Below, piece after piece: positions 6,774 to 10,453 of a stretch of DNA of 32,429 nt (its first letter is position 1; the number at the start of each line of letters is the position of its first letter). Source of the DNA: Candidatus Buchananbacteria bacterium CG10_big_fil_rev_8_21_14_0_10_42_9. GTDB lineage: Bacteria; Patescibacteriota; Patescibacteriia; Buchananbacterales; 21-14-0-10-42-9. Position numbers and translations under genes: made by a program. Below the pieces are notes generated by a model. It saw nothing but the letters and a program-made list of their open reading frames with translations. It made no database searches and was not told where the DNA came from. Where the stretch lies: the NCBI GenBank assembly GCA_002773845.1, contig PEZZ01000012.1, positions 1-32,429 on the forward strand, written 5' to 3'.

Positions 6774-9427
6774 AAATCGTCTAAACTAATATCTAAATCA
6801 GGTTTTAATTTTAAGGCTTGCTCAAAGGCCTGCTTAGCTAACGTGTCTTCGCTTAATTGCTTATAAGTTTGGGCTAAGCTAACATAGACGTCTGGGTTGT
6901 CGGTAAATTTTTCAACAGCTACTTGATACAACCGCAACACTCTTTGGACATCATTTTTGTTTTTGTACATATCTACAAATCTCAAGTAGTCTCCTAAAAG
7001 TAAGATATCCCGGCTAATCACATCGTTCAATAACCCGTCAAATTTATCATGCTTGTCTAATAATATTAAAACGCTGCCTAAATTCATTTGTGACTCACGA
7101 ATATCTGGATTAAGTTGAACCGCAAACTCTAACGCTTCAATCGCCTGGTCTGGTTGGTTTGCCAATAGATATGATTGGCCAAGCTCATAATAGACGCCGG
7201 CTCTTTTCTCGCTAATTTCAATGGCTTGATTTAAAACCTTAATTGCTGACTGCGCATATTGCGGGTCAACTCTGGCAGCTCGATTATAAGCTTGGGCTAG
7301 CCATAATAAATAACGTGTATTTTGTGGATTGTTAGCCGCGGTTTTTTTAAGCTCTTTTAAAACCAGCTGCATTGCTTTTAATCTGTCATCAGGTGCAATT
7401 TTATCATTGCCCAATTGCGGTAACACAAAATTAGCCAACTGTTGCCTAGCCTCATCTTTACCTATTAAGCCAGTGTTAATTGAATGCTCTAATGAATCAA
7501 CAGCATCATTAAATGTGATTGCTTGCTGATTAATCTGGCGCAGGACTTTAAATAACTCATGGTTCGCCCGGGCCGGTTTAACGTTAAAATGATAGATAAA
7601 AACCGCTACCACCAAAATGATTAGCGCCGCCTGACCATATTTAACTTTAATCACATCGTGGTTTAGCTGCCTTTGCTCTGGGCGGCCATGCACCAATGGA
7701 ACAAGCGAGGCAAAAATTAGAAATATTACAACATCTGTATTCAAAGTATCAAAGACGAATAAATTTTGAATTAAAAAAGCTACTAATAACGCCATTAAGG
7801 CGGCAAAAGCTCGGTTGGACCGATCGCGTCGATACAATATTAATAAATACCAAAATGCCACAACAAAAATAGACGCGTAGGCTGCCAGCCCTAAAATGCC
7901 AGTGGACACGCCCCAATCAAACACAAAATTATGCGCCCGGTCAAACCATATGCGCGAGCCAGCGTCTTGGTAAATTGGAATCGGAAAATTTTTATTAAAA
8001 GCAATATAATAATTTTCCGGGCCATAACCAAGTAATAAATGGTCTTTCCATCCGCTCCAACTCGCCTGCCAAGTCAGTACTCTTGATTCAATTGTAGTGC
8101 TGCCAGGGCCCGTCAAAAAACTATTTAAAGGTACAATAATCAAATTAACCGGAAATGACGCTTGGGCCCACGGCTCATTTCTAACTTTATACGCTGTGTA
8201 AGGGGTGGCTAAAAGTATTACAAAAACTATAACTGAAAAAAACGCCGCCAAATTTTTCTGCTTGCGCCAAAATGAATAAACTAGCAAAATTACTAACATT
8301 AAAACACTGAAATAAATCCCCACTAAAGGAATTTCCTTGCCAAGCCGTGCCAGCACTATTGATTCAGTGACTAACCTGGAGTCGCGAATCAAATAAAAAA
8401 TAAGTTGAATAAAAATTAGTAATAACCCAAGGCCGTAATAGGTTTGTTTGGTTTTTTTCTTATCGCTCACATGGCCCAAAAATCCAGCCAGTAAAACTAA
8501 ACCAGCCAGCAGGGCGATTATCGCCCCTCGGGTTTGAGTGTGAAATAAAATGTAAATTTGAAAAATAAGCAATGACCATAAAACTATTTTATTGCTCATA
8601 TAACGCCAGGGCCGGCTAAGCTTCAAAAGATACCAAATCGCCAGCGCGTTTAACCCAATCGCGATGGCAATTAAAATATTACTTTTCAAAATTGCAAAAA
8701 ATAAACCTCCATCTAGGCCCCGCGAGCGCATTAAAAACTCATGTCCAACAATAAAAATATCAAACAAAATAATCGACCAAGCGAAAACTTTGGGGTTGAG
8801 TTGAAGCTTGCTTTTGGAATTGGACAATAAAAAGAAAAGAACAATAAAAATATTAAGTACTAAATAACCGCCGTAAAAAGCGGCATTGCCTATTGTTCCA
8901 GTCAGCCGAGTGCCGCCAGAGGATGCCAAAAAGACCGGGATATTTAACTGCTGGGTTAATGCTAGTAGCGCAATGACTAAATTGACGAACACAGTAAAGG
9001 TCAAAAAATCAGCGATTTGCTTTTTGCTTGTGATAAATTGAGTCAGCACAAAAAAGAATAAAAATACGTGCAGATAATGGATAACACCGCTCATCCGCTC
9101 GTAGGTGCTAAATAAGCTGCTACGTAAATTCTCGCCGAAAAACATGCTCACAACCATAACCACAAATAGTAATGCGACCGAACCAGAAAGCCAATCTAGG
9201 CGCGGGCGCGGAAACTTTTTGGTCATGGCCAAAATCACATAAGCGCCAAATATTATTTCAACAATTATTCTAAAGACAATATTTTTAGGCACAATAAACG
9301 GAAAAAAGAACTGGCTATGCAAAAAAGCAGGCAAAAATAAAATGGCATAAATGCCAATTGTAATGAGCCCGCCAAGCACCCAGGCAAGCGCCGTACGCCC
9401 TTTTAATGATTGTACTGAAAGCTTCAT
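6770..9427 (-). CDS. O-antigen ligase / Wzy-like polytopic membrane protein with C-terminal TPR repeats
   Basis: This membrane protein probably transfers or polymerises a polyprenyl-linked glycan at the outer face of the cytoplasmic membrane. From ATG 9427 it has 885 residues: about 12-14 hydrophobic segments up to roughly residue 615, a large extracytoplasmic loop with the Wzy_C/O-antigen-ligase pattern (Arg in ESRVLTW near 448, GYGPENY, and His near 499 in RAHNFVFDWG), then a soluble tail with three or more TPR-like repeats (about 696-880, for example VYYELGQSYLLANQPDQAIE). The frame stays open 49 codons further upstream to a TTG, but that stretch contains the promoter, so I chose the ATG where typical membrane-protein sequence begins (MKLSVQSLKGR). 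It is the first gene of the ligase-protease-gtrA-carAB operon. Ligase versus polymerase versus protein O-glycosyltransferase cannot be told from sequence. Confidence 0.88.
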   Translation of the reverse strand: MKLSVQSLKGRTALAWVLGGLITIGIYAILFLPAFLHSQFFFPFIVPKNIVFRIIVEIIFGAYVILAMTKKFPRPRLDWLSGSVALLFVVMVVSMFFGENLRSSLFSTYERMSGVIHYLHVFLFFFVLTQFITSKKQIADFLTFTVFVNLVIALLALTQQLNIPVFLASSGGTRLTGTIGNAAFYGGYLVLNIFIVLFFLLSNSKSKLQLNPKVFAWSIILFDIFIVGHEFLMRSRGLDGGLFFAILKSNILIAIAIGLNALAIWYLLKLSRPWRYMSNKIVLWSLLIFQIYILFHTQTRGAIIALLAGLVLLAGFLGHVSDKKKTKQTYYGLGLLLIFIQLIFYLIRDSRLVTESIVLARLGKEIPLVGIYFSVLMLVILLVYSFWRKQKNLAAFFSVIVFVILLATPYTAYKVRNEPWAQASFPVNLIIVPLNSFLTGPGSTTIESRVLTWQASWSGWKDHLLLGYGPENYYIAFNKNFPIPIYQDAGSRIWFDRAHNFVFDWGVSTGILGLAAYASIFVVAFWYLLILYRRDRSNRAFAALMALLVAFLIQNLFVFDTLNTDVVIFLIFASLVPLVHGRPEQRQLNHDVIKVKYGQAALIILVVAVFIYHFNVKPARANHELFKVLRQINQQAITFNDAVDSLEHSINTGLIGKDEARQQLANFVLPQLGNDKIAPDDRLKAMQLVLKELKKTAANNPQNTRYLLWLAQAYNRAARVDPQYAQSAIKVLNQAIEISEKRAGVYYELGQSYLLANQPDQAIEALEFAVQLNPDIRESQMNLGSVLILLDKHDKFDGLLNDVISRDILLLGDYLRFVDMYKNKNDVQRVLRLYQVAVEKFTDNPDVYVSLAQTYKQLSEDTLAKQAFEQALKLKPDLDISLDDL

Positions 9428-9437
9428 AATCTTAAGT

Positions 9438-9466
9438 ATTATAATGATTTGTGCCAGCATGGTCAA
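9438..9466 (-). promoter_or_regulatory. Sigma70-type promoter of the ligase-protease-gtrA-carAB operon
   Basis: On the minus strand, -35 TTGACC (9466-9461) and -10 TATAAT (9443-9438) are separated by exactly 17 bp. The expected start of transcription is near 9431, only about 4-6 nt before ATG 9427. The mRNA is therefore nearly leaderless, and no Shine-Dalgarno fits before the ATG. Confidence 0.8.
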
Positions 9467-9473
9467 TGGCCTG

Positions 9474-9502
9474 TTGACATTTAGATCCAAATGCCGTATT
9501 CT
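9474..9502 (+). promoter_or_regulatory. Sigma70-type promoter of the GC-rich island gene
   Basis: Consensus -35 TTGACA (9474-9479) and -10 TATTCT (9497-9502) are spaced by 17 bp. The expected start is near 9509, giving a leader of about 65 nt before GTG 9575. The -35 is only 7 bp from the -35 of the divergent minus-strand promoter, so the two polymerase sites lie back to back and could compete. Confidence 0.78.
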
Positions 9503-9508
9503 TTTTTG

Positions 9509-9630
9509 TTCTTGTGTTCGCAATTGGGCGTTCGCAAGACATAGTTCTTTTAACATAGAAAGGAAGGTGCGCAAGTGCCTAATTCCGGTATTCTATTGGT
9601 CGCCAGAGATAAAGCGCCTTCCTTGGCGCT
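9509..9630 (+). promoter_or_regulatory. Structured leader with alternative hairpins that can hide the Shine-Dalgarno
   Basis: The Shine-Dalgarno AAGGAAGG (9560-9567) and the next three bases can pair with 9614-9624 (codons 14-17 of the gene): 11 consecutive pairs including one G-U. A second, mutually exclusive hairpin is AGCGCC (9613-9618) with GGCGCT (9625-9630), which would free the Shine-Dalgarno. Upstream, GTTCGCAA occurs twice (9516 and 9530), and CTTGTG (9511-9516) can pair with CGCAAG at 9533-9538 or at 9570-9575. This is pairing read by eye; I could not fold it or test covariation. It matches no riboswitch class I know. Confidence 0.45.
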
Positions 9631-10384
9631 GAGCAAGCTGGCGGCTGAGCTACAAAGTCGAGAAACAGCCGTCATAGCGTTTCTTGGCCATGGCAACCCA
9701 ATCATCGGAGCCCCCGATCAGATTGTGACGTCAGCCCGTAAGGCCACGGCAGTTGTCATCGGTGTATCCTCGAGCCCGAAGCTCTCGGCTCAGGAGACGC
9801 TCGCTGGCTACGCCGCCATTGAGGCTGGAGTGCCCCTCTACGTGTATTGTGACACCTACGGGTGCCACTGGCAGGTACCCACCAAACGCAACGGGCTTCG
9901 GGAGTTCGAACGCCTTCGCCCGCCGGTGAGCCAGGATGATCGCTGGGCATGGGTCGGCACCGTTACCCTTCCCCCACGCGATCCCTATCTGCACGTAGCG
10001 TCGTGCGCCCTAAAAGTTAAGGACGATGGCGTGGCCCAGCTCTGGACGATTGAGTACAACGATGAATGGCATGACGTCTGACGCTACACGGTGGAAGACG
10101 GCCAGATCACACAGCGTCAGTACCTTGACGCCATCGCGCCGGAGACGTACGGCATCGCCTTTAGCCGCCACGTCGCGCCCTGGTTCATCACGGGTGCAAG
10201 GTGTGAGCATGCTCGGGGAATCTACCGGGGCGACAAACTGGTTGTGCCGAATGTATGCGGTACCGGACTCGCCTTTCTGCATAACGGTGACCTGCTCGTC
10301 GTCGAGTACGGCCGCCACTACCCTGGCGCGATCAAAGGCCGTTCGTGCCGTATCAAGATCGTGCCCAGGGAGATGCTTCAGTAA
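9575..10384 (+). CDS. Unrecognised GC-rich gene, frame interrupted by an in-frame UGA (168 + 100 residues)
   Basis: I do not recognise this protein. GTG 9575 follows a strong Shine-Dalgarno (AGGAAGG, 7 nt spacing), rare in this window. The frame reads 168 codons to TGA 10079-10081 and continues in the same frame for 100 more codons to TAA 10384. The first part alternates hydrophobic strands and helices like a Rossmann-type fold (GILLVARDKAP, TAVIAFLGHG, AVVIGVSSSPKL, AAIEAGVPLYVYCDTYGC), loosely like the N-terminal half of GT-B glycosyltransferases. The second part (from RYTVEDGQ) has beta-rich character (GTGLAFLHNGDLLVVEYG) and no good start of its own: GTG 10091 lacks a Shine-Dalgarno. G+C is 40/60 in 9781-9840 and 39/60 in 10141-10200, against 21/60 in 10561-10620. 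Both halves look protein-like, so this is either one gene with a recent nonsense change or a readthrough gene. Horizontal origin is likely. Confidence 0.6.
10078..10120 (+). promoter_or_regulatory. Inverted repeat enclosing the in-frame UGA
   Basis: CTGACGCT (10078-10085) and AGCGTCAG (10113-10120) are a perfect 8-bp inverted repeat with a 27-nt loop. The UGA stop (10079-10081) lies in the 5' arm and is followed by C, a context known to favour readthrough. It could be a readthrough-stimulating RNA structure or a chance palindrome in a GC-rich gene. Confidence 0.4.
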
Positions 10385-10389
10385 TTTTT

Positions 10390-10453
10390 ACCCGGCGTGC
10401 GCCGGTGAGTAGCGTGTATGCTAAGACGCTTCTCATCGGCCCGCCGGGTTTTC
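10390..10453 (+). terminator. Long composite rho-independent terminator after the GC-rich gene
   Basis: The outer stem ACCCGGCG (10390-10397) pairs with CGCCGGGT (10442-10449). The middle stem GCCGGTGAG (10401-10409) pairs with CTCATCGGC (10432-10440) with one G-U. The inner stem AGCGT (10411-10415) pairs with ACGCT (10426-10430) around a 10-nt loop. The hairpin is followed by TTTTCCTTT. It begins 6 nt after the TAA at 10384 and insulates the sugar-transferase promoter just downstream. Confidence 0.85.

Follow-up and report, generated by a model that had tools for sequence, protein, structure and literature searches.

An interrupted GC-rich gene

The window, which is the whole analysed stretch of 32,429 nucleotides, contains a GC-rich gene on the plus strand that lies between two native cell-surface-glycan genes, one encoding a Wzy_C/TPR protein and the other a bacterial sugar transferase. 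Direct sequence and ORF checks showed a single frame from GTG 9575 to TAA 10384 whose sole interruption is a TGA at 10079–10081 (context GTC TGA CGC), exactly at the coordinates of the original prediction. The 5′ part (9575–10078) has 168 codons and a G+C content of 59.3%, and the 3′ part in the same frame (10082–10384) has 100 codons plus the TAA, with 61.3% G+C over 10082–10381. The earlier estimate of about 65% was therefore a little high, although the gene is clearly GC-rich. Overall G+C is 33–41% in the flanks of the gene and 41.5% in the genome as a whole (1.09 Mb in 50 contigs). Third-position GC in the gene was 65% before the TGA (9575–10078) and 75% after it (10082–10381). Relative to its neighbors the gene is as exceptional as first described, but relative to the genome it is not, as dozens of GC-rich islands occur elsewhere.

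Coding potential was assessed in each frame with codon preferences derived from the other GC-rich genes in the same genome. The frame of the gene scored +19.0 bits 5′ of the UGA and +18.5 bits 3′ of it, with the 40-codon windows across the UGA being the best of all windows (+9.7 and +11.3), while the remaining two forward frames had negative scores. A +1 frameshift product (ORF 10026–10412) was ruled out by its strongly negative codon score. One antisense frame was also positive, which is expected as the mirror of GC-rich codons, and no homology stood behind it. An open stretch of 100 codons 3′ of the TGA has a chance probability of about 0.07, and it is homology on both sides of the TGA that identifies the region spanning it as one reading frame. 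Protein-like sequence on both sides, as the original prediction proposed, is thus borne out by a continuous codon signal together with homologues of both parts. The UGA was the only lesion in the gene, and the 100 codons that follow showed no further decay, with homologues too distant for substitution rates.

A sigma-70-type promoter, TTGACA-17-TATTCT, is located at 9474–9502 on the plus strand and matches the consensus at 10 of 12 positions. The Shine-Dalgarno (SD)-like site AAGGAAGGTG (9560–9569, plus strand) ends 5 nt ahead of the GTG, and the anti-SD of the 16S gene is intact. A long terminator-type hairpin follows at 10390–10449 on the plus strand (−42.6 kcal/mol, z = −6.8) and is itself followed by TTTT. 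The gene is accordingly a self-contained unit with its own promoter, SD-like site and terminator hairpin. Promoter and terminator agree with what had been claimed for them, while the SD-like site is present as a weaker variant than AGGAG or GGAGG and not as the strong one predicted. The same kind of promoter occurs at four homologous genes (L003, L159, L160 and L163), and in all five cases the TTGAC(A/T)-17 element is 68–81 nt upstream of the start; a constant promoter-to-start distance for GC-rich genes in general was sought genome-wide and not found. There was no second copy of the cassette or its flanks elsewhere in the genome. On the minus strand, the neighboring Wzy_C/TPR gene has a promoter, TTGACC-17-TATAAT, within the region 9427–9466 of the window. 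Only about 10 nt separate the end of this promoter from the likely ATG of that gene at 9427. This promoter and that of the cassette are back to back, and the transcript of the neighbor may be nearly leaderless.

Homologues and composite make-up of the protein

Searches of Pfam, NCBIfam, PHROGs and PDB sequences gave no meaningful match to the protein obtained by reading through the UGA, and none was found in phage and plasmid records, IMG/VR viral contigs or, using a peptide pattern, genome contigs. A search of related genomes returned one match, between the first 100 residues and a 340-aa protein (L003) in G003, which belongs to another genus of the same order (34% identity across the N-domain). 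A two-sequence profile recovered the same N-domain in G654 (L159) and G625 (L160), and another, diverged family member (L160:2758–3300) follows immediately downstream of the first one in G625. The shared domain, common to a family of 340–354 aa, corresponds to residues 6–98 (9590–9868, plus strand) and is predicted to be Rossmann-like, with pLDDT of about 70–90.

The remainder of the protein has different relatives. Among 381 genomes of the class, residues 99–269 matched a 305-aa protein (L163) in G635 (39% identity, E = 2 × 10−23), with the alignment passing through the UGA without a stop in the homologue. BLASTP against L163 widened the match to residues 92–269 (9848–10381, plus strand; E = 1 × 10−24, 35–39% identity), an all-beta region that shares homology with the latter half of a propeller-like family of ~300 aa, and a profile added three members, L172, L173 and L174, from the order of G635. 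The closest homology is located across and after the UGA; homologues limited to the first 168 residues would have argued against a longer gene. At E below 0.001, the N-domain was found in 4 of the 381 genomes and the C-part in 2, and every homologue found among the genomes searched came from another genome in this class. The C-family member L174 adjoins genes that resemble glycan-synthesis genes (roles judged by eye), as does the interrupted gene.

These alignments indicate that the protein is a chimera, as two unrelated families cover its whole length with a junction at about residues 92–103. The genomes searched yielded no intact gene with this N/C combination. A single sequence gave a poor structure prediction, while five sequences gave a fairly confident Rossmann-like N-domain and low-confidence beta meanders for the remainder; a fold search with the predicted structure returned nothing at E below 0.001. 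We use ‘propeller-like’ as a provisional label, suggested by the arrangement of strands and by weak Tachylectin/Reg_prop signals in L163, and ‘GT-B-like’ for the N-family in the same tentative sense, following a by-eye reading of motifs in full-length members.

GC-rich genes across the genome and its relatives

Across the genome, 77 segments of 250 bases or more are in a GC-rich state, some of them tRNA or rRNA. About 40 GC-rich ORFs of at least 80 codons have a frame supported by codon usage (among loci L010–L084 and L093). ORF composition was skewed, with 36 high outliers compared to 2 low ones. Only 4 of 39 GC-rich ORFs, including the UGA-interrupted gene, had a protein match in sampled relatives, compared to about half of native ORFs. 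Two have known families, namely a SLOG/TIGR00725-type protein (L031:11072–11626) and an M23 peptidase (L084:7044–7628).

A strong SD (AGGAG or GGAGG) preceded the start of 41% of GC-rich ORFs but only 4% of native ORFs (Fisher P = 5 × 10−11 against length-matched native ORFs), with shuffled controls at 12% and 5.5%, respectively; as noted, the 16S anti-SD is intact. The same split was found in two other genera of the order, represented by G003 (78% of 32 GC-rich ORFs vs. 8%) and G001 (57% of 7 vs. 5%), and was not clear in five other sampled genomes. Downstream hairpins were also stronger in the GC-rich class (median −27 vs. −18 kcal/mol), a contrast that is partly compositional since downstream GC was 46% for the class and 41% for native genes. 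Scanning for short terminators by consensus failed to distinguish GC-rich from native genes, whereas folding of the sequence 3′ of the stop did distinguish them. When we searched G000, the genome under study, and G003 for promoter plus SD irrespective of composition, GC-rich genes accounted for about half of the cases and the rest included EF-Tu and other native genes, such that this combination appears to be the grammar of strongly expressed genes. In G765, two adjacent and unrelated GC-rich genes are 80% identical over 49 nt around the SD and start (L173:1369–1417 and 2530–2578), as if the leader had been duplicated or swapped between them. It is conceivable, though we regard it as doubtful, that genomes of the order draw on a common pool of GC-rich single-gene expression cassettes, dozens in each genome, that have strong SDs where native genes make little use of them, swap and reshuffle their coding parts into chimeras like the present one, and decay fast.

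Interpretation of the stop codon and comparison with related systems

UGA is an ordinary stop in this genome. RF2 is present, 93 of 589 native long ORFs end in TGA and no tRNA with a UCA anticodon was found in the genome, which together rule out an altered code with UGA as a sense codon. A selenoprotein is ruled out as well, as the match to the Rfam tRNA-Sec model is tRNA-Ser(tga) and the best score for SelA (18.1 bits) was below the cut-off of 22.8. The RNA 3′ of the UGA was not unusually structured (z = −0.74), ruling out a stimulatory structure after the stop. In the homologues L163, L172, L173 and L174, sense codons occupy the UGA position and there is no stop; an ungapped alignment to L163 places the UGA opposite a Tyr codon, although the alignment is loose by 1–3 residues and the exact column is approximate, also in an alignment with W substituted for the stop.

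The gene resembles intact genes both before and after the stop within a single frame, as expected of a pseudogene created by a nonsense mutation. We consider it probable that the gene is a GC-rich, monocistronic, chimeric, exchanged single-gene cassette of foreign composition that was recently inactivated by one nonsense codon. It would encode, now or formerly, a chimera of about 269 residues in which a Rossmann-like domain, of the kind that opens the two-domain GT-B-like family, is fused at about residues 92–103 to the latter half of an all-beta protein of the propeller-like family. The single nonsense codon would halt translation past residue 168 and leave a 168-residue fragment, while transcription probably still runs from the gene’s own promoter to its own hairpin. 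The gene would then belong to a wider group of GC-rich single-gene cassettes that are exchanged. For this gene we infer expression, horizontal exchange and a recent loss of function; the self-contained organization and foreign composition of the proposed cassette were confirmed, and compositional foreignness with a patchy distribution makes horizontal acquisition plausible.

The lesion could instead be a base, assembly or minority-strain artifact in a gene that is intact and encodes one 269-residue protein, which we judge unlikely. It is a single lesion with all else in frame and the genome is a 50-contig draft, as an artifact would have it, but the site carries no direct sign of low quality and substitution errors that create a stop are less common than indel errors. 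Programmed or tolerated readthrough, yielding products of 168 and 269 residues, is less credible still. UGA followed by C is generally regarded as a leaky context, so some readthrough may occur, and the coding signal is preserved 3′ of the stop, yet homologues have sense codons at the position, neither suppressor tRNA nor selenocysteine genes were found in the genome, the downstream RNA is unremarkable, and other family members are broken elsewhere by a TAG or a frameshift. Among the 8 loci of the two families, 2 besides this gene are broken, each by a different lesion: an in-frame TAG interrupts a C-family member in G753 close to the 3′ end (L172:2128–2130), and an N-family member in G654 (L159:242–1304) is split, by a frameshift or possibly a sequencing error, into frames of 159 and 230 aa that align to residues 2–147 and 193–325 of L003. 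These broken members are better explained by random decay, or by draft errors scattered among the genomes, than by programmed recoding. Of the two origins initially put forward for the UGA, a nonsense change (or base error) is accordingly retained, while programmed readthrough finds no support in the homologues, the other lesions, the decoding machinery or the RNA structure.

A split gene that stops at the UGA and re-initiates to give two cooperating polypeptides is similarly improbable. Contrary to the view that the second part has no plausible start, an in-frame GTG occurs at 10091, 9 nt 3′ of the UGA, and the downstream frame is preserved; this GTG nevertheless lacks an SD, the break would fall inside a predicted beta strand (residues 166–174) and none of the homologues found is divided there.

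On its own, the presumed inactivated cassette is a broken orphan, and it matters more as a sample of its class. A streamlined genome of ~1.1 Mb retains about 40 GC-rich genes, mostly without recognizable relatives, whose translation-start grammar differs from that of the rest of the genome. The class thereby poses testable questions regarding its origin, its mobility and whether it forms a strongly expressed accessory or host-interaction set. We found no description of such a GC-rich, SD-led gene class in the open-access literature.

Both families that contribute to the gene are uncharacterized. The 340–354 aa family (L003 in G003, L160 in G625 and the broken L159 in G654) is two-domain, without a Pfam match, and shares its N-domain with residues 6–98, while its second half is absent from the interrupted gene, which carries the unrelated beta region in its place. 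L003 and L159 resemble the gene in being GC-rich relative to their own flanks and in having the same promoter type, SD and hairpin. Conversely, the ~300 aa propeller-like family (L163, L172, L173 and L174) matches residues 92–269 through its second half, and its first half is missing from the gene. L163 is likewise a GC-rich unit (64% G+C, 32% upstream) with its own promoter, whereas L174 (L174:1489–2391, G647) is AT-rich (38% G+C, flanks 25–32%). In aquifer genomes of Patescibacteria, to which the present genome may belong judging by its size and relatives, single genes are reported to be exchanged, mostly among Patescibacteria (PMC12455944). A mosaic class of single genes that are GC-rich and SD-led does not feature in the passages of that study drawn on here; what its transferred genes would have in common with the interrupted gene is the exchange of single genes.
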